Shown here one piece after another: positions 4,727 to 59,735 of a stretch of 64,000 nucleotides of DNA (its first letter is position 1; each line of letters starts with the position of its first letter). The notes below the pieces were generated by a model. That model worked only from the letters and a program-made list of their open reading frames with translations. It searched no databases and was not told the DNA's origin. The translations under genes and the position numbers were made by a program. The DNA is from Verrucomicrobiales bacterium. GTDB taxonomy: Bacteria; Verrucomicrobiota; Verrucomicrobiia; Verrucomicrobiales; V1-33. The stretch is from positions 1 to 64,000 of the forward strand of contig JAQGPJ010000103.1 in the NCBI GenBank assembly GCA_028293125.1. The letters run 5' to 3'.

Positions 4727-5602
4727 CTACTTTTTCACGGGACTCTTCGGAGCGGCTTGGGGTTTGGGTGCCGGCTTGGCGGCGGCATAGGGCTGGAGGA
4801 TGACCGTGACCGGGGTGTCCCGGTCGGGCACTTTGGTTTTGTCGGGCACCCAGATGTCGTCGTTCTCATTGCCCCCGCGGGGATTGTTGATGACGGCGGC
4901 GACATCCGCGTAAAGCGCCAAAATGGAGCCCGTGTCCTTCGCCAGGAAGGTGCCGTCCTGCATCAGCAGCGAGCCGGTGTAGGTAAAGGGTCCCTCGGTG
5001 ACCGTGCTTTTCTTATCAATATTCAGCAGCAGGGACTCCAGGCGCGCGGACTTGGCGGAGTTGTCGGGCGCTTTCCACTCCACCGTGGCCATCAGTTGGG
5101 CAGTGGGATCAATCTTCGGATTTTTCACTGGCATGGCCCCGGCCTGCTTGTTGGACTGGTCGAAAAATCCGGCGCACTCCTGGTAGTTCAGCAGCAGGAG
5201 CACCACATTGAGGTCGAAGGGTGAGACAGCGGTGCTGAGCAGGGATTCGTGCACCTTCCCCGCCTCGTGCACCAACGCGTACTCCAGCAGCCCCTCGTTC
5301 ATATTTACTTTGGCGGGAATGACGATGGCGCGGGTCTTTTTGTCGAACAGGATGCCGTTCAGCTCATAGCGGTTGCCGTCCAGTTTTTTGATGGCCCTAG
5401 CCGGATCCGGCTCAGAGGCGGGGGTGGGTATGCTCCCTGCCGGGGGGGCGGGTTTGGCCGGGGATGCCGGGGCCGGCGCCGCGGGTGGTGCCGTCAGTTG
5501 TTTCTCCTGGGCGGGCAGTTCCGGAGCACCGAGGGACAGGAGGAGCAGGAAGCAGGGAACAGGAAGCGGCAGTTTCACGGATAAAAGCGTAAAGGCGGCC
5601 AT
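4727..5602 (-). CDS. YdjY-domain-like secreted protein
   Basis: A 291-residue protein with an N-terminal signal peptide (hydrophobic PCFLLLLSLGAPELPAQ, about residues 15-31). A Pro/Ala-rich linker follows (about 32-65), then a folded domain to about 270 and a Pro/Ala/Lys tail. The domain contains NRYELNGILFDKKTRAIVIP, GLLEYALVHEAGKVHESLL and DLNVVLLLLNYQECAG. I associate this pattern (R-i-iPg-vn...G-lEY-LV...gK-HEsLL) with YdjY-type domains that are widespread in Planctomycetes and Verrucomicrobia and have no known biochemical function. It is likely periplasmic or surface-associated. It is divergent from the ECF sigma gene across a 122-bp gap that contains the inverted repeat GGACG-GCCCCA-CGTCC (5654-5669), so the two genes may share regulation. 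Confidence 0.8.
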   Translation of the reverse strand: MAAFTLLSVKLPLPVPCFLLLLSLGAPELPAQEKQLTAPPAAPAPASPAKPAPPAGSIPTPASEPDPARAIKKLDGNRYELNGILFDKKTRAIVIPAKVNMNEGLLEYALVHEAGKVHESLLSTAVSPFDLNVVLLLLNYQECAGFFDQSNKQAGAMPVKNPKIDPTAQLMATVEWKAPDNSAKSARLESLLLNIDKKSTVTEGPFTYTGSLLMQDGTFLAKDTGSILALYADVAAVINNPRGGNENDDIWVPDKTKVPDRDTPVTVILQPYAAAKPAPKPQAAPKSPVKK

Positions 5603-5724
5603 CGGGAATGCAATTGCGCTTCGTCAGGGAAGGAGCAGAATACCCTTTCAAATGGACGGCCCCACGTCCGTTAAAACCGCGTCGTTTTGTGAATAATTCC
5701 CCGCAACCGCCGTCAGAGGATCCG

Positions 5725-6387
5725 ATGGACGCTGTCTTGACCTCCCCGATGTTCCTGCCCACGGCGGCCACCTCCCCGGTGACCGCCGGGGAAGCCCGTG
5801 AGGATGGGTCGCCTGAGGACGCGGAGCTGGTCTCCCGCTGCCAGGCGGGCCAGACGCAGGCTTTCGAGGCTCTGGTGGTCCGCTACCGCTCCCGGGTGTA
5901 TGCCATGATCGTGAACATGACCGGCAATGACGCCGACGCTTGGGATCTTTCGCAGGACGTGTTTCTCAAAGCTTGGAAGGCGCTGCCGAAGTTCGAGGCC
6001 CGCTCCCAGTTTTTCACTTGGCTCTACCGCATCACCCACAACGTCACCTACGACTGGCTCCGGAAGCGCAAAATCGGCAACGGCACGGAGTTTGACGACG
6101 CCCAGGGCCAGACGCCCGCCGCCGGGGCCGTGACCGTGCCCCGCCATGAGCCGGAGCCGGACACCCGGCTGCGCAACAAGGAGGTCGGCAGCCGCATCGC
6201 CGAGGCCCTGAAGGAGCTGTCGCCGGAGCACCGCTCGGTGATGCTGCTGAAGGAGGTGGAGGGGCTTTCGTATCAGGAAATAGCGGAAACCGTGGGCTGC
6301 ACCCTCGGCACCGTGATGAGCCGGCTTTTTTATGCGCGGAAACGACTGCAAACCCTCCTGCGCGACGTATATGAAACCCAAATTTGA
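5725..6387 (+). CDS. ECF-type RNA polymerase sigma factor
   Basis: A 220-residue sigma-70 family protein of the extracytoplasmic-function group, which redirects RNA polymerase to a regulon under control of a partner anti-sigma protein. Region 2 is clear (AWDLSQDVFLKAWKALP then FFTWLYRITHNVTYDWLRKR, about 75-120). Region 4 ends with the helix-turn-helix YQEIAETVGCTLGTVMSRLF (about 185-205) that reads the -35 element. A linker of about 30 residues joins the two. I chose the ATG at 5725, which follows AGAGGA at 5715, one of the few purine-rich ribosome sites in the window; an upstream in-frame start at 5608 lacks such support. The next gene, 78 bp downstream, is its likely anti-sigma partner. 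Confidence 0.95.
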   Translation: MDAVLTSPMFLPTAATSPVTAGEAREDGSPEDAELVSRCQAGQTQAFEALVVRYRSRVYAMIVNMTGNDADAWDLSQDVFLKAWKALPKFEARSQFFTWLYRITHNVTYDWLRKRKIGNGTEFDDAQGQTPAAGAVTVPRHEPEPDTRLRNKEVGSRIAEALKELSPEHRSVMLLKEVEGLSYQEIAETVGCTLGTVMSRLFYARKRLQTLLRDVYETQI

Positions 6388-6465
6388 TTTTGCCTTTTTT
6401 CCGATCCTTTTCCCTTTGGCCATTCCTTTCTTTTTCCCCCTCTTTTCCCCTGTCCCCACACCGCC
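6388..6465 (+). promoter_or_regulatory. Pyrimidine tract before anti-sigma gene
   Basis: The whole gap between the sigma factor stop and the anti-sigma start is almost only C and T, broken mainly by TTTGGCCATT in the middle and a few A and G near the ATG. No Shine-Dalgarno sequence is present. Such tracts could bind ribosomal protein S1 or simply reflect an unusual leader style shared by many genes in this window. Confidence 0.5.
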
Positions 6466-7161
6466 ATGAACGCGAACGCGCCCCACGAAATGAATGAGGA
6501 GCTGATGACGCGCTGGATCGACGGCCAGCTGAGCCCTGAGGAGCAGGCATCCATGGACCGCCTGCTCGCCGTCGAGCCCTCGCTGAACCTGGAGAAGCAG
6601 TCCGCCCTGCAGCTGGGCGGCCTGCTCCGCTCCCATCTGCCCGCCGCCTTGGAGCCGCCCTCGCCCGATTTCTTCACCAGCCGGATCATGGATGAAATCC
6701 GGTCAGCACCCTCCACGCCGGTGGCGAAGAATATAAAAGCGAAAGCTGCCTCCTCTGCGCCGTCCTTCTGGACATGGCTGCGGCGACCCTGGCTCGCGCC
6801 CCTGATCTCCGCCGCCGCCGTGGCAGTGGTGTTCCTGGCGGTGGACAGCCGGCGTCCCGATGCCGGCGGCGGCACTCCGGTGGCCGATGCCTCCCGCATC
6901 TACGCGCCGGACCCGAATGTTGTCGCCAAGGCGTATTTCTCCAATTCCGCCGACGCCACGGTCATCGACCTCGAAGGGTTGCAGCCGGTGCCGGACGACC
7001 GCGAAATCCGCGCCTTCGACCTTGCCAGTGCCGAACCTCCCGCCCCGGGCCAGCCGCAGGTGTTTTACTCCGCCTCCGGCCCCGACCGAGCCAAACCGGT
7101 GCTCACCGTGGCCACCGGCGGCAGTGGCGGCGCGGCTCCCCGGCTGAAGGATCTGCACTGA
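6466..7161 (+). CDS. Membrane anti-sigma factor-like protein
   Basis: A 231-residue protein with an N-terminal cytoplasmic helical part (EELMTRWIDGQLSPEEQASM, about 11-30). This is the usual shape of anti-sigma domains: W-D-G-L followed by a short acidic helix. One transmembrane segment follows, WLAPLISAAAVAVVFLAV (about 109-126), then an extracytoplasmic part of about 100 residues. The HxxxCxxC of zinc-binding anti-sigma domains is absent, so it is of the RseA-like or unclassified kind. Its place right after an ECF sigma gene suggests that it holds that sigma at the membrane until an envelope signal releases it. That function is inferred from context and architecture. Confidence 0.8.
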   Translation: MNANAPHEMNEELMTRWIDGQLSPEEQASMDRLLAVEPSLNLEKQSALQLGGLLRSHLPAALEPPSPDFFTSRIMDEIRSAPSTPVAKNIKAKAASSAPSFWTWLRRPWLAPLISAAAVAVVFLAVDSRRPDAGGGTPVADASRIYAPDPNVVAKAYFSNSADATVIDLEGLQPVPDDREIRAFDLASAEPPAPGQPQVFYSASGPDRAKPVLTVATGGSGGAAPRLKDLH

Positions 7162-7368
7162 ACCGGAATGAGACAGCCGCCTGCCGGCTTCAGCTTTGGG
7201 TTCGGCACGGACTCAAATTCCGGCAGGACTGAATAGGCGGCGTGGCCACAGCGGTCCCTTTCCCAAACCGGCACGCCACCCGCCCCTGATCTGGGTGAAT
7301 CTTATCTGCTCCGGCCCATCATCCAATTCAACCACCGCCGGCCCGGTCCTGATGACGCTTTCCCCTTC

Positions 7369-8055
7369 ATGAAACGCCTTTTCCTTTCCCCGCTTCCGCT
7401 GGCCCTGACGGCGTCTCTGGCTGTGATCATCCCGCCCGTCTTTACCCACGCGCAGCAGCAGACGGCGCAGGCTCCAGCGGCCAAAACCTCCGGCCCCGCC
7501 TTGGCTCGGGATCAGGATCAGGTGAAGGCACCGGGATCGGCGCCGGCACCGGCAGCACCTGCCGTGAAGTCAGCGGATCCGGTTCAGACCCAGGCTCCGG
7601 CCCATGAAAAAGCCTCGGATAAGCGTTCTCCGGAACCCACCGCCAACGCCGCCTCCGACGCCCAGGTGCAGGGACTTCTGTTTTTTGCCTCCAACGACCC
7701 CAACGCCCCCGCCCAGGAGGAAAAGGTCACCGTGGACGCCGCCATGCTCACCCCGCTGGACGGGCGGCTGAAAAAGGTTTTCCCCTTCTCCAATTTCCAT
7801 CTCATCGGCAAGCACACCCAAAAGGTCTTCAAGGAGTACGAATCCTGGGTGGTCCCCTCCAAGGACCTCTGCCTCAAGATCGACTCCCGCGGCCCTGCTG
7901 AAGGCGGCGGCGTCAATGTCCACCTCCAGCTCTGGCAGGACACCAAAGTCCTCGTCAAATCCGACTCCGTCATCCGCCCCGGCCAGCCCATCTTCCTCGG
8001 CGGCCCGAAATGGCGCGGGGGGCGGTTGATTTTTGTGGTGATGCTGAAGGGCTAG
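7369..8055 (+). CDS. Secreted protein of unknown function
   Basis: A 228-residue protein starting MKRLFLSPLPLALTASLAV, a signal peptide that likely ends near THAQ (residue 28). A low-complexity Ala/Pro/Gln/Lys linker follows (about 29-95), and then a compact domain (about 100-228) with FFASNDPNAPAQEEKVTVDA, FPFSNFHLIGKHTQKVF and a C-terminal GGPKWRGGRLIFVVMLKG. I do not recognise the domain. The stretch is beta-rich by appearance. It follows the sigma/anti-sigma pair in the same direction and has the same signal-linker-domain layout as the YdjY-like protein, so it may belong to the envelope regulon of that sigma factor. Confidence 0.75.
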   Translation: MKRLFLSPLPLALTASLAVIIPPVFTHAQQQTAQAPAAKTSGPALARDQDQVKAPGSAPAPAAPAVKSADPVQTQAPAHEKASDKRSPEPTANAASDAQVQGLLFFASNDPNAPAQEEKVTVDAAMLTPLDGRLKKVFPFSNFHLIGKHTQKVFKEYESWVVPSKDLCLKIDSRGPAEGGGVNVHLQLWQDTKVLVKSDSVIRPGQPIFLGGPKWRGGRLIFVVMLKG

Positions 8056-8536
8056 CAGCACGGGGACCACACAAGGCCTCTCCTTCTTGCGGATATCGAC
8101 CACTTCGGGATTTTTGTCTGAGCCTCCTTGCCGGCTCCTCCCGCCGCTTCTTCACTCCTGCTGATGGTATCTCCTCTATAACACTCCGACCCAACAGGAA
8201 AGGATTTGCGTTTAAGCAATCAATTTTCTGATAATGAACACCTTGCAAAAATCTATCATCCTCTGGAAAGTTTGGGTTTAAATAGAAATCAGGCCCAAAA
8301 TGGAATGTGGCTGCGGTAGCGGGTGGAGGTTTGAATCGGATCAGCAATTTTCAATTTTAAGGCTGAAATTTGGCCTTATGGAATCTAAACGAATTTCAAC
8401 GGAAGCAATCCTCTGGCACGAGTGATTTGTTTTCAGCCAAGCCTGCCATCCGCCCCACAATGCTTTGCTTGCAATGGCCATGTGCCAGACTTTGGCTGAT
8501 TCTCCCAGCAACTGGCCTTAGCCGCTTCTTCCTCCC
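8056..8536. other. 481-bp gap before kdsB
   Basis: No gene is visible. The central part (8210-8400) is distinctly AT-richer than the surroundings. It contains a small inverted repeat, AAGGC-TGAAATTTG-GCCTT (8359-8377), too weak to call a terminator. A promoter for kdsB-rapA should lie in this region, but I cannot point to a good -35/-10 pair. Confidence 0.4.
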
Positions 8537-9334
8537 ATGCCCTCCCCCCGTATCATCGCCATCATCCCCGCCCGTTACGGGTCCACCCGGTTTCCGGGGA
8601 AACCGCTGCATCCGCTGGCGGGGAAGCCGCTGATTCAGCGGGTTTGGGAGCGCTGCATGGCGTGCAGCGGACTGGCGCGGGTGCTGATCGCGACGGATGA
8701 TGAGCGCATCCTGCGGGCGGCGGAGGGGTTTGGCGCGGAGGCCTGCCTGACCTCGCCGGATCATCCGAGCGGGACGGACCGCATCGCGGAGGCGGCGGAG
8801 CGGGATCCGGAGGCCACGCACATCATCAATGTGCAGGGGGATGAGCCCATTCTCTCGCCGGCGCTGATCGATGAGCTGGCGGCCCGGCTGGCGGCGGATC
8901 CGTCCATCGGCATGATCACCGCCGTGCATCCGCTGCACGATCCCGCCCTGCTGCACGATCCCAATGTGGTGAAGGCGGTGCTCGACACCGAGAAGCGGGC
9001 GCTTTATTTCAGCCGCAGCCCCCTGCCCTACCCTCGGAATCCGCAGCCGGGCTTTCCTGTATGGCGGCACATGGGGCTCTACGGGTATTCGCGGGAGTTT
9101 CTGCAAACCTTTGTGGCCTGGCCGCCCTCGGCGCTGGAACTCACAGAGGGGCTGGAGCAGCTGCGCGCGCTGGAGAACGGCGCGCGCATTCACTGTGTGG
9201 TCACGCATCACGACAGCCCGGGCGTGGACACGCCGGAGCAGGCCGCCGACATGGAGCGGCGGCTGTGGGCCATGGAAGAAATGGAGTCCGGAGCGCCCCC
9301 GAAAACCACCGGAACCGGTGCCTTCACTCCATAA
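8537..9334 (+). CDS. kdsB: 3-deoxy-manno-octulosonate cytidylyltransferase
   Basis: A 265-residue cytoplasmic enzyme that activates Kdo with CTP to CMP-Kdo for lipopolysaccharide inner-core synthesis. The start PSPRIIAIIPARYGSTRFPG (2-21) is the classic nucleotide-binding signature. KPLIQRVWERC, TDDERI and THIINVQGDEP (about 95-105, metal and CTP site) also match the family, as do the later YFSRSPLPYPR and HMGLYGYSREFL. Length is in the normal range (about 250). The presence of kdsB indicates an outer membrane with LPS. Its stop codon overlaps the start of the following rapA gene (TAATG), so the two are translationally coupled although their functions are unrelated. Confidence 0.97.
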   Translation: MPSPRIIAIIPARYGSTRFPGKPLHPLAGKPLIQRVWERCMACSGLARVLIATDDERILRAAEGFGAEACLTSPDHPSGTDRIAEAAERDPEATHIINVQGDEPILSPALIDELAARLAADPSIGMITAVHPLHDPALLHDPNVVKAVLDTEKRALYFSRSPLPYPRNPQPGFPVWRHMGLYGYSREFLQTFVAWPPSALELTEGLEQLRALENGARIHCVVTHHDSPGVDTPEQAADMERRLWAMEEMESGAPPKTTGTGAFTP

Positions 9335-54924: not shown

Positions 54925-56496
54925 TCAAAGGCTGCTCAGGAAACGCAGCAGCGCGGTGCGGTCCTCCCGGCTCATGTTCTCAAACGCGGTCCGTGAGGCC
55001 TTGGCCTCGCCGTCGTGCCAGAGGATGGCCTCCTGAAGCGTGCGGGCCCGCCCGTCGTGGAGGAAAAACTCATTGCCGTTCACCTCCTTGTTCAAGCCGA
55101 TGCCCCACAGTGGCTGGGTGCGCCACTCACTGCCGGTGGCTTCAAAATCGGGCCGTCCGTCCGCCAGTCCGGAGCCCATGTCGTGAAGCAGCAGGTCGGT
55201 GTAGGGGCGGATGGTCTGATTCCGCAGCTCCGTCAGTTCCGCGTCGCCGCCGGTTTTCAGTTCCGGAATGTGGCAGGCGGTGCAGTTCGCCTGCGTGAAA
55301 AGCTGCTCCCCCTTCCGGACCACGGGATCGTCCAGCTGCCGCCGCCCCGGCACCGCCAGCGCCCGGAGATAGGTCACCACCCGCGTGAAGATTTTCCCGC
55401 TGACCTCTGGACCGCCGTCCGGGTCATTGCCAGTGGGCATCGGCCCCAGAACGGTCGCCTGCGCGGGCGTGACCGCCTCCTCCGGATGCAGTTCGGAGGT
55501 GAGCCCGATGTCATTCAAAAAGGCATCGGCGGCCTGCTGCCGCAGACTGGGCTGGTTGGCCTTCCAGCCAAAGCGTCCCAGGGATTTCCGACCCAGATCA
55601 AAGTCGTGAACCTCGTTCACCCTGCCGGAAATACCGTCATGATTGGCATCGTCCGGATCCGCCAGGGCGCGGATCACCGCCTCTGGCACCGCCTCCAGAA
55701 GACCGCCTCCGTAGGACGGCTGGGCCAGCCTCGGCCCCAGCATGAGGTCCTTCGACGGCTCGCCATAATGCCAGACGATGGGGCCAAACTCCGGGCGGCG
55801 CAGGGCGGTCGTTTCACCGTCAGGAAAGGTGTGGACGGATTCGACCCACTTCACCGGCACATCCGCCTCGGGCTTCAGTCCGGCGGGATGCTCGATCACC
55901 CGCACGCCCAGCTGCCCGCCATAGATCGGATCGGGCTTCGGTCCGCCGTGGGCATCCGTGCCGGGCACGCTCAGCCGCAGCAGCAGGCCGGTCATGACCT
56001 CCCCCTCCTCCGGAGGCCGGCCGCGCCCGTCCTTCACATGGCAGGCGGAGCAGGAGCGGGAATTGAAAAACGGACCCAGCCCGTCGCGCGCCGCGGCGCT
56101 GGCGGGGGCGATCACCCAGTTGTTGTTGAAGAAGGAGTTGCCGGTCGCGAATTCCCGCCGGGCCTCCCGGCTGATATTGGCCAGCGGCAGGGCAAACGCC
56201 TCCTTGCCGTCGTTGAACACGGTGGTGGCTCCGCCGGAGTTGGCCTCTGGCGGACGGGTGGGACGCACGGCATCCTCCTCCAGCAAAGGCGCGTCAGGCG
56301 TCGGAACCGGAGGCGGAGCTTTTGATCCGGGGGATTCCTCAGCCGAAGGGAGTCCCGAAGCGGTCGGGACAGCTTCAGTCTCCTTGGACGCAGGAGTTGC
56401 GGGATCCGCCTCCGGCGCAGCCGTGACCGGATAGAGGGAAATCCCCGCCGCCAGCATCACCAGCAACAGCATAGGAAAAAAGGGGGCCGGTTTCAT
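54925..56496 (-). CDS. Di-heme oxidoreductase (DUF1111)
   Basis: A 523-residue exported c-type cytochrome of the DUF1111 (di-haem oxidoredictase, sometimes called thiol oxidoreductase) family. Signal peptide FFPMLLLVMLAAGISLYPVT (about 6-25), a Pro/Glu/Ala linker to about 85, then the domain. Two haem attachment sites are visible: RSCSACHVKDGRG (about 143-155) and ANCTACHIPELK (about 400-411). Family landmarks DGISGRVNEVHDFDLG and HDMGSGLADGRPDF are present. Electrons likely pass between periplasmic partners and the two haems; the substrate is not known. It overlaps the imelysin gene by 4 bp, an arrangement seen in other genomes where imelysin and DUF1111 genes form iron-responsive operons. 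Confidence 0.92.
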   Translation of the reverse strand: MKPAPFFPMLLLVMLAAGISLYPVTAAPEADPATPASKETEAVPTASGLPSAEESPGSKAPPPVPTPDAPLLEEDAVRPTRPPEANSGGATTVFNDGKEAFALPLANISREARREFATGNSFFNNNWVIAPASAAARDGLGPFFNSRSCSACHVKDGRGRPPEEGEVMTGLLLRLSVPGTDAHGGPKPDPIYGGQLGVRVIEHPAGLKPEADVPVKWVESVHTFPDGETTALRRPEFGPIVWHYGEPSKDLMLGPRLAQPSYGGGLLEAVPEAVIRALADPDDANHDGISGRVNEVHDFDLGRKSLGRFGWKANQPSLRQQAADAFLNDIGLTSELHPEEAVTPAQATVLGPMPTGNDPDGGPEVSGKIFTRVVTYLRALAVPGRRQLDDPVVRKGEQLFTQANCTACHIPELKTGGDAELTELRNQTIRPYTDLLLHDMGSGLADGRPDFEATGSEWRTQPLWGIGLNKEVNGNEFFLHDGRARTLQEAILWHDGEAKASRTAFENMSREDRTALLRFLSSL

Positions 56497-57671
56497 CCCG
56501 CCACGTCCCCTGCCGCCTCCTCAGGGATATCGATTTTCAAAGCCCGGGCCAGACGGCGCAGCAGGGCGGACTCATCCTCGGCGGCGGCGATGGTGGCCAT
56601 AATGGCCTTGCGCCCCGGACCGTCGATGGGACCGAGAATGGCCTGATCAAACGGCACCGGAATCTTTTTCGCATTTTCCACGGTGGCGTCCACTTTGGCG
56701 TCCAGCAGGGGCACGAGGTCCGCCTTGACCAACTTCGCCAGATCACGCACGCCGGGGCCGGCGACGGCTTGGCCATTGAGCTGCAGATAGCTGCCGCGGT
56801 AGATGTTCTGAAGACCGATGGCGTCGAAGATGGTGTCCTGATGAGTGGTGTCGCTGAAGCAGGAATGCTCGTCCTCCTGCTCCTGGGTGTCCCAGGCCAC
56901 TTGGAGCCGCTCGCCGGCCAGTTCATTGCCGCTGAGGAAGATCATGCCCGTCAGGATGCGCTCCACGGAGTTCTCATATCCCTCCTCGAAAATGTTGCGG
57001 TAATTGCCCAGCTGATCGGGAGCCCACTGGTCGCGCACATCCGTCAGGTGTTTGATCATAAGCTCCGCGCAGGCTTGGAGATACTCTCCCCGGCGTTTGG
57101 CGTTGGGGGCGGTGGTGTAGTCCGTGAAGGGGCGGTCGCCGGGACCGGTGACGCTTTTGTCCTGGCCCCACAGCAGAAACTCAATGGCGTGCCAGCCGCA
57201 GGAGATGTTCTTCTCGCCATCTCTCAGGTTCAGCTCCTCGATCAGCTCCGGCGTGATTTGGGGATACCCCTTCACATTGCCAATGATGCCGCCGTCCCCG
57301 CCCTCGGCCACATCGATGTAAACCTCGTCCAGCGGCCAGGAGTTCAGCAGCGGCTCCGGACCGTCCGCGTCGTCGACCGGACCGGCGTAGTAGCGGTAAG
57401 CCTCGCTCTGAAGATACGGCTGGCGGGCTTTGACCCACACCTTCCGTGCCGCTGCCAGCGAATCCGCTGAGGGCTTTTTCAGAAATGCCTGAATGCTGTC
57501 CCGCAGTTCCGTGGCCGCCGTCACGCAGTCGCTGTAGTTGGCGTGGACGATATTGCCGTAGTTGAGGACCACCTGCTTTTTGAGATCCTTTTCCGGCGTG
57601 GCGGCGGCCTGAAGCGGCGACAGGGCCAGCGTAAGCGGGACGGCAAGCAGGGAGAGGAGCAGGAGCTTCAT
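56493..57671 (-). CDS. Imelysin-family protein (ICMP/IrpA-like)
   Basis: A 392-residue secreted or surface protein. The signal peptide is MKLLLLSLLAVPLTLALSPL (1-20). It has the imelysin fold of two helical bundles with the hallmark GxHxxE motif GWHAIEFLLWGQD (about 157-169), a probable metal site resembling the catalytic motif of the M75 family but thought not to be proteolytic. NIVHANYSDCVTAATELRDS and LAGERLQVAWDTQEQEDEHS (the family-typical W-T--Q-DEHSCFSD region, about 285) also match. Members are iron-regulated and often sit next to DUF1111 cytochromes, as here. The start at 57671 opens directly into the signal peptide. A Fur-box-like site lies about 120 bp upstream. Confidence 0.92.
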   Translation of the reverse strand: MKLLLLSLLAVPLTLALSPLQAAATPEKDLKKQVVLNYGNIVHANYSDCVTAATELRDSIQAFLKKPSADSLAAARKVWVKARQPYLQSEAYRYYAGPVDDADGPEPLLNSWPLDEVYIDVAEGGDGGIIGNVKGYPQITPELIEELNLRDGEKNISCGWHAIEFLLWGQDKSVTGPGDRPFTDYTTAPNAKRRGEYLQACAELMIKHLTDVRDQWAPDQLGNYRNIFEEGYENSVERILTGMIFLSGNELAGERLQVAWDTQEQEDEHSCFSDTTHQDTIFDAIGLQNIYRGSYLQLNGQAVAGPGVRDLAKLVKADLVPLLDAKVDATVENAKKIPVPFDQAILGPIDGPGRKAIMATIAAAEDESALLRRLARALKIDIPEEAAGDVAG

Positions 57672-57777
57672 AACGGAAGGACAGAACAGGAAGGGAAAAA
57701 AGATGCCGGCACCGGACCGCCGCTTTCCTCCCGGAGAATGAAACAAGGCTGCCACCCTACCCCTGCGCCGGGTGGCG

Positions 57778-57877: not shown

Positions 57878-59110
57878 TCACCGCACAATGATCAGTTTAT
57901 GCGCCTCATGGGCTTCCGGCCATTCCAGCCGTTCGCACTGGCGCGCCAGCACGGAGCGGGGCACGGGGTGGGGCCGCCCCCGGTTGCGGCTTTCCAGTTC
58001 AGCCAAGGGCGTGCGCATGGCCACGATGGTGGTGGTGGCCCCGTAATCGCTGGCCAATTCCAGCAGAAAGGAGCGCAGTTCCCGCCGGAGATTGGTGGCA
58101 TCGAATATCACGCGCCCGCCGCCCCCGGCCCGCAGATGCCGCTTCACCTGCTCCTTTGCCTCCTGAAACACCTGACCGTTCATGGACTGGTCATCCCGCT
58201 TCCCGGCCACCTCCTCCCGCAGGTCATCCAGGGAAATGACATCAGCCTCCCCGCCGTGGCGGTGGACCCACTCCGATTTCCCTGATCCGGACGGCCCCCA
58301 CAGCAGCACAAATTCCGGTGCGGGGTTCTTCAGCTGCCAGGCGCGGGCAATCCCTTCCTCCACACTGTGGATGAGCCCGGCGGCGGCATCACTGATAGCC
58401 GCGGCCAAGGCATGGTGGAGGAACGCGGGAGACCGGCCGGGGAAGGCGGCATCCATAGCCTGCCGCCAATCCCCCCAGGGATCGGGGTTGTCCCAGATAT
58501 CCAGTTCCATGCACCGCATGCGGAAAAGATCCAGAATTTCCAACTGTCCCTCCAGGTCATGGCAGACCCCGCCCCGCAGGTCGGCGGTCTCCAGATCAAA
58601 AAGCAGGCGCGGCGGGCACTGGCAGGCCAGCCGCCGCCACAGGGCCGGCGGCGCGTCATCCATCACCAGACGGCGGGGATGGTGGTGCAGGGCGGTCAGC
58701 GCCAGCACCGCCCGCTCCACCTCCCAGGGCAGCCCCAGAGCGGCGAGGCGGAGGCAGAGGTAATTGCGTCCCGCCTCCGCGTGGCGGGGCGACACCACAC
58801 GCGCCGGCCCGCCATCCAACGGCTCCCGCCAGCGCGTGGTAAGAGGCTTGCCAATGTCATGGAACACAGCGGCCAGCTGAAGGATCAGGGCCGTTTCCGG
58901 AGGCTGACCGGAATCCCGCGGCGGCAGGCGGCGGATTTCCTCCAGCACCATTCGGGTGTGGATGGCCACATGGCCCTCCCCATGCCAGACGGGGTCCTGG
59001 TCCGTCACCGCCAGTTCCTCCAGCAGGGGGAAATGCCGCTCCCAGGCGGCAATCATCTCCTCCCACGCGGGCCGGCCGCCGCCGGCCATGATCCGGCAGA
59101 GCCTATCCAT
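57878..59110 (-). CDS. HD-phosphoesterase / 5'-OH polynucleotide kinase (HD-Pnk-like)
   Basis: A 410-residue two-domain end-healing enzyme. The N-terminal HD domain has HVAIHTRMVLEEI (47-59), AAVFHDIGKPLTTRW (80-94, with the H84-D85 pair) and TALHHHPRRLV, a metal-dependent phosphohydrolase pattern. The C-terminal P-loop domain (about 265-410) has LLWGPSGSGKSEW (269-281), SLDDLREEVAGKRDD (293-307), VIFDATNLRRELRSFLL (334-350) and the arginine-rich lid ELESRNRGRPHPVPRSVLAR (371-390), all typical of T4-type polynucleotide kinase. Together they would remove 2',3'-cyclic or 3'-phosphates and add a 5'-phosphate to broken RNA, as I recall for the HD-Pnk of Runella. The start overlaps the stop of the RNA ligase gene by 8 bp, so it is co-produced with the sealing enzyme. 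Confidence 0.9.
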   Translation of the reverse strand: MDRLCRIMAGGGRPAWEEMIAAWERHFPLLEELAVTDQDPVWHGEGHVAIHTRMVLEEIRRLPPRDSGQPPETALILQLAAVFHDIGKPLTTRWREPLDGGPARVVSPRHAEAGRNYLCLRLAALGLPWEVERAVLALTALHHHPRRLVMDDAPPALWRRLACQCPPRLLFDLETADLRGGVCHDLEGQLEILDLFRMRCMELDIWDNPDPWGDWRQAMDAAFPGRSPAFLHHALAAAISDAAAGLIHSVEEGIARAWQLKNPAPEFVLLWGPSGSGKSEWVHRHGGEADVISLDDLREEVAGKRDDQSMNGQVFQEAKEQVKRHLRAGGGGRVIFDATNLRRELRSFLLELASDYGATTTIVAMRTPLAELESRNRGRPHPVPRSVLARQCERLEWPEAHEAHKLIIVR

Positions 59111-59735
59111 CGCCGCGCAGCCGGTTGGGGATGACCGGACCGTGCATCCAGTGCTGGTCCGTGGTGACGTGCGAGGGCCGCACCCATTTGGCCACGGAGT
59201 CGGCGAACCGGCTGTGGTGGAATCCTTCCTCCAGCCGCACCACATACCCCTCGCTCACCGCGGGATCCACGGTGATCCGCCGCACGGCCTTGGCGTCCCA
59301 CACGCCCTGATGGATCACCGCCGGCACCGGACAGCCCAGCCGCCGCGCCCATTCTCCGGTTTCCTGCCAGGAAAGGCATTCGTTATCAGCGTTCCAAACG
59401 GAGAACAGAAAAAAGAATCCTGGCAAATCGGCATAGGCGATGGAGTGCCGGGCGTAGAGATTCTCCCCGCACAGCCGCCACCCCTCCGGGATGTCGTGGG
59501 CGATGGAGGCATGCCAGGCCTTCACCAGACTGCGGGAAGGATGGTAGGCGGAATCCAGCGAGCGGGCATGCATCCAGTCGCGGTAAAGCGAGGTGTTCTC
59601 GCCGTCCATCTTTTCGGTCACCACCACGCGGCGGCCCTCAAATCCCGGACAGTTGCTGAGACGCACATCGTCATCCGAGGCTCCGGGCGACCACGGCAGG
59701 TGCGGGGTGCGGGGATATTTCTGACGTCCATTCAT
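59103..59735 (-). CDS. ATP-dependent RNA ligase
   Basis: A 210-residue covalent nucleotidyltransferase. Motif I VVTEKMDGENTSLYRD (39-54) has the adenylated Lys42 in K-x-DG. Motif III-type LCGENLYARHSIAYADLPGF (about 88-107), motif IV SEGYVVRLEEG (about 166-176) and motif V VAKWVRPSHV (about 185-194) follow in order, with the KWVR lysine. It is a small ligase near the minimal catalytic core and lacks an obvious extra domain. It would join RNA 3'-OH and 5'-phosphate ends via an AMP-capped intermediate, completing the healing done by the HD-Pnk-like partner encoded next. I start at 59735 (MNGRQKYPRTPHLPWSPG); an upstream ATG exists but its 56 residues look non-native. The leader is a C/T-rich CCCCCCCTCCCC. 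Confidence 0.9.
   Translation of the reverse strand: MNGRQKYPRTPHLPWSPGASDDDVRLSNCPGFEGRRVVVTEKMDGENTSLYRDWMHARSLDSAYHPSRSLVKAWHASIAHDIPEGWRLCGENLYARHSIAYADLPGFFFLFSVWNADNECLSWQETGEWARRLGCPVPAVIHQGVWDAKAVRRITVDPAVSEGYVVRLEEGFHHSRFADSVAKWVRPSHVTTDQHWMHGPVIPNRLRGDG

Follow-up and report, generated by a model that had tools for sequence, protein, structure and literature searches.

The 64,000-nucleotide stretch of Verrucomicrobiales DNA analysed here (hereafter, the window) carries a two-gene cassette of a known kind, LigB/HD-Pnk, which probably heals and seals broken ends, most likely on RNA broken by ribotoxins or nucleases of the anticodon type. The first gene encodes an ATP-dependent polynucleotide (RNA) ligase of the LigB/DRB0100 type with 210 aa (59103..59735, minus strand, from an ATG at 59735 to a stop at 59103), and the second encodes HD-Pnk, a 410-aa protein that joins an N-terminal HD phosphoesterase to a C-terminal 5′-OH polynucleotide kinase (57878..59110, minus strand, from an ATG at 59110 to a stop at 57878). 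The two frames overlap by 8 bp, as described in the first-pass annotation. Neither ORF is due to chance, since both genes are kept by relatives across phyla. The pair itself is known, and the present analysis is of value for what the gene neighbourhoods say about its target: in several separate lineages, the genes beside the pair belong to RNA repair and ribosome rescue and not to DNA repair, which provides a hint as to what it acts on.

Both gene identities proposed earlier were supported by Pfam matches above the cut-offs and by invariant residues. The ligase matched RNA_ligase (PF09414) with 99 bits (cut-off 27), while HD-Pnk matched HD (PF01966) with 31.6 bits (cut-off 22) and AAA_33 (PF13671) with 91 bits (cut-off 27). 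In the ligase, K42, D44, G45, E91, E162, G163, and K183 were invariant in an alignment of 50 sequences; motifs I, IV, and V are intact, in agreement with the earlier reading, and the predicted AMP-accepting Lys42 of motif I (EKMDGEN) is encoded at 59610..59612 on the minus strand. The protein consists of the nucleotidyltransferase (adenylation) domain alone. In HD-Pnk, the HD domain spans residues 49-147 (58670..58966, minus strand), with its H84-D85 doublet at 58856-58861, and the P-loop polynucleotide kinase domain spans residues 268-397 (57920..58309, minus strand), with the P-loop GPSGSGKS at 58274-58297. Across 41 aligned sequences, the HD residues H51, H84, D85, H110, H142, and D177 and the kinase residues K278, D295, R298, R346, and R379 were invariant, so that metal-binding residues are intact in the HD domain fused to the T4-Pnk-like kinase, and the HD part did not turn out to be an unrelated nucleotidase. 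Judging from these residues, 5′ kinase and 2′,3′-phosphoesterase activities are predicted for HD-Pnk, and the three activities previously expected of the pair (3′ healing, 5′ phosphorylation, and sealing) stand as an expectation. Next to the cassette, the window encodes a divergent sigma factor and, downstream at 54925-57755, an imelysin and a di-haem oxidoreductase, the last two being iron-related and having nothing to do with the cassette. RNA-repair genes are absent from its immediate surroundings in the window, and inspection of the upstream region gave neither promoter-like sites nor inverted repeats.

A scan of genome contigs returned 217 relatives of HD-Pnk, and the neighbourhoods of the best 80 of these, from many phyla, were collected. 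In 74 of these 80 loci (a count that takes in L091 from Plesiocystis), a ligase of the same superfamily was encoded upstream of HD-Pnk and in the same orientation, often with an overlap of 4-23 bp; the pair is conserved. A 700-aa ORF in the Plesiocystis locus was considered as a ligase-HD-Pnk fusion and rejected, the ligase being in another frame. The distance matrices of ligase and HD-Pnk were correlated with a Mantel r of 0.75 (n = 64 pairs) and, within the close type, of 0.57 (n = 50), with 0 of 5000 permutations as high in either case; the two genes co-evolve. The cassette has a patchy distribution: of the other congeners sampled, only G004 carried it, and elsewhere in the family it was present only in G008, and its flanks in these genomes had nothing in common with those of the window. 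This patchiness, together with the different sites occupied in relatives, suggests that the cassette is a mobile unit that moves as a whole. The HD-Pnk gene of the congener G004 contains one in-frame TAG (L061 8870-8874, G004:C70), corresponding to either decay or a sequencing error.

HD-Pnk enzymes are known from Runella, and the Runella loci (L129 and L135) share domain order, pairing, and gene order with the window, while their ligase belongs to another subfamily (~30% identity) and Tpt1/KptA is situated directly upstream. Bacterial Pnkp-Hen1 resembles the cassette in its chemistry (5′ kinase, 3′-end phosphatase, and ligase), but Pnkp is a single chain that includes a metallophosphoesterase, unlike the two proteins of the window. 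The healing and sealing logic is also that of T4 Pnk with the T4 RNA ligases and of jumbo-phage RNA repair, and the kinase domain is akin to that of T4 Pnk; in T4 Pnk, however, the kinase comes first and the phosphatase domain is different, whereas the HD domain comes first in the window protein.

The genes accompanying the cassette in other lineages point to RNA. Among 105 operon-like neighbours in the 80 loci, the most frequent Pfam families were RF-1 (PrfH; 6), RtcB (5), and LMW phosphatase (4), followed by RNA ligase, T4_Rnl2_C, RlaP, and Tpt1, and the sole DNA-repair family among the 25 listed was the alkyl-transferase domain (2). Five of the PrfH/RtcB loci come from one genus, Pseudoalteromonas, for which reason lineages weigh more than loci. 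Linkage to RNA-repair genes was observed in Pseudoalteromonas (RtcB2-PrfH), Kangiellaceae and a Bacteroidetes MAG (PrfH), Runella and Tannerella (Tpt1/KptA), Marinibactrum (RtcA/RtcB), and a Verrucomicrobiales MAG, where two RlaP genes are situated directly upstream of the pair (L081, the same contig as G044, in the window's order). An RtcB gene was present in seven loci of three genera, with a chance expectation of ~0.35, calculated for the 1.13 Mb covered by the 80 loci from the density of RtcB genes in the genome of the window (two in 6.5 Mb). Second RNA ligases, some of them T4-Rnl2-like, were found downstream of the pair in other lineages. In Pseudoalteromonas luteoviolacea (L102, L086, L094, L105, and L112; ~5000-9200), the genes encoding RtcB2, PrfH, an LMW phosphatase-like protein, the ligase, and HD-Pnk follow one another on one strand, a gene order that corresponds to two RNA-repair systems joined. 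In the Myxococcota and Deltaproteobacteria (L077, L080, and L092), a T4-Rnl2-like ligase gene was located downstream of HD-Pnk, and in the deltaproteobacterial L092, HD-Pnk is paired solely with such a ligase.

The predicted structures agree with this assignment. AlphaFold2 models were obtained with a pLDDT of 92.5 for the ligase and 94.2 for HD-Pnk. The best 39 fold matches of the ligase model were RNA or tRNA ligases, except for two chains of 3qwu, one entry titled putative DNA ligase, and other DNA ligases started at rank 40. The best folds were T4 Rnl2, Naegleria Rnl, TbREL1, and archaeal Rnl, placing the protein by fold in the RNA ligase superfamily (Rnl2-like), although with modest TM-scores of only ~0.4-0.6. 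The nearest relatives of the HD domain were CCA-adding tRNA nucleotidyltransferases, and the nearest solved relatives of the kinase domain were the C. thermocellum Pnkp kinase and T4 Pnk. In a phylum survey with the HD part, many matches had about the length of CCA-adding enzymes, unlike HD-Pnk.

Other repair systems are encoded separately in the same genome, namely Ku-LigD DNA end joining, a complete Hen1-Pnkp RNA-repair locus (G000:C82:51200-55464), and two RtcB genes. A further RNA_ligase match in the genome (C10) is not a second RNA ligase; by its sequence, it is the ligase portion of a LigD encoded next to Ku. Genome matches to PrfH were rejected, being below the cut-off and in frames of about ordinary release factor length, and no PrrC-like AAA_13 gene exceeded its cut-off in the genome. 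The decayed PIN-toxin genes previously placed near the cassette did not hold up, as PF01850 gave no match in the window at E ≤ 0.001 and the nearest PIN match on the window's contig (C31:100312) is ~40 kb off.

Deinococcus is a radiation-resistant bacterium, and the first-pass annotation, while right about the Runella kind, missed that the direct orthologues of the window proteins are encoded in its LigB operon. The ligase is 55% identical to D. radiodurans DRB0100 (LigB/DdrP) over 204 aa without gaps, and HD-Pnk shares 39% identity with DRB0098 over 395 aa; by sequence, the two are orthologues of DRB0100 and DRB0098. Gene order, strand, adenylation lysine, and the HD and kinase residues are shared, with Lys42 aligning with K40 of DRB0100 and Arg375 of HD-Pnk with R371 of DRB0098. 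In D. radiodurans, a PARG-type macrodomain gene (DRB0099) is situated between ligase and HD-Pnk, whereas the window lacks it and its two genes overlap; the plasmids of D. taeanensis and Deinococcus sp. KNUC1210 likewise show directly overlapping ligase and HD-Pnk genes with no PARG gene. PARG was not found in the genome of the window in a search run without a positive control.

The main published reading of the Deinococcus operon is DNA repair, according to which HD-Pnk would clean DNA ends of the radiation or oxidation type and LigB would seal the strand breaks with the help of other proteins. The operon is induced by irradiation, DRB0098 phosphorylates 5′-OH ends of DNA, and mutation of R371 lowers its kinase activity (PMC1997131); LigB was reported to be active on DNA with DRB0098 and PprA (PMC5128194, PMC3893189), and according to a review its deletion leads to the loss of damage tolerance (PMC5128194). 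On the other hand, knocking out DRB0100 caused no radiation sensitivity, and no DNA ligation was seen with the purified protein (PMC1978522). Considering also the RNA-repair genes that accompany the pair across lineages, the ligase fold nearest to RNA ligases, and the Ku-LigD system that the genome already possesses, DNA strand-break repair is an unlikely role for the cassette. Furthermore, DRB0099 strips ADP-ribose from RNA and shields E. coli against an RNA-modifying toxin (PMC11833690), which fits an RNA role for the D. radiodurans operon. Broad end repair of both RNA and DNA nicks would reconcile the action of the D. radiodurans kinase on DNA with the RNA enzymes conserved beside the pair, but the consistency of these RNA neighbours suggests a selected role on RNA and makes this a quite unlikely reading. 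Self-adenylation by DRB0100, which is lost in K40A and thus agrees with the role proposed earlier for Lys42, was accompanied by neither DNA nor RNA ligation by the protein alone under any condition tried (PMC1997131). That the ligase, instead of sealing, might transfer AMP or nucleotides and act together with HD-Pnk on a different substrate, as this result and the absence of a separate C-terminal domain would allow, is very improbable given the invariant motifs IV and V and the replacement of this ligase by a T4-Rnl2-like one in L092.

Repair of RNA, as proposed in the first-pass annotation, is plausible but not proven: it is strengthened by the neighbours in other lineages, the fold, and the separate Ku-LigD, while the failure of DRB0100 alone to ligate, the DNA-repair claims published for LigB, and the lack of RNA-repair genes beside the pair in the window count against it. 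The present analysis establishes the sequences, domains, residues, pairing, co-evolution, and neighbours, and self-adenylation of the ligase and 5′ kinase activity were demonstrated for the D. radiodurans orthologues; sealing by the window ligase, RNA over DNA as its target, and the identity of that RNA are inferred. In the mechanism proposed, the HD domain would remove a 2′,3′-cyclic phosphate or 3′-phosphate and the kinase domain would phosphorylate the 5′-OH, after which the co-translated ligase, adenylated at Lys42 by itself, would pass AMP to the 5′-phosphate and seal it to the 3′-OH. The likeliest substrate would be a translation-related RNA (tRNA or rRNA) cleaved by ribotoxins or nucleases of the anticodon type, in a stress-repair or counter-conflict role; nothing speaks specifically for tRNA, the target named earlier, which is one guess among several. 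More tentatively, LigB/HD-Pnk, which for twenty years has been interpreted chiefly as an operon for DNA repair, could possibly be a widespread mobile RNA-repair module against such nucleases in bacteria and large phages, acting in some lineages beside RtcB2-PrfH on ribosomes with cut 16S rRNA.

Jumbo phages, whose RNA repair has already been described (PMC7824862), encode close relatives of the window ligase, with up to 55% identity. The whole ligase-HD-Pnk pair was found in an uncultured 462-kb phage (L059 2853-5059), and pairs were also present in other viral contigs, two of them 215 and 381 kb long (L159, L160, L161, and L166-L168), with complete ligase and HD-Pnk genes at 5186-7182 in L159 and 5351-7137 in L160. 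Two phage ligases near that of the window (L054 3548-4627 and L058 4521-5624) bear an HNH-like N-terminal extension, and an HNH-Rnl2 fusion has already been reported in phages (PMC7824862). In many viral contigs (L171-L187), the order of the protein is reversed, with the kinase first and an HD-like part second.
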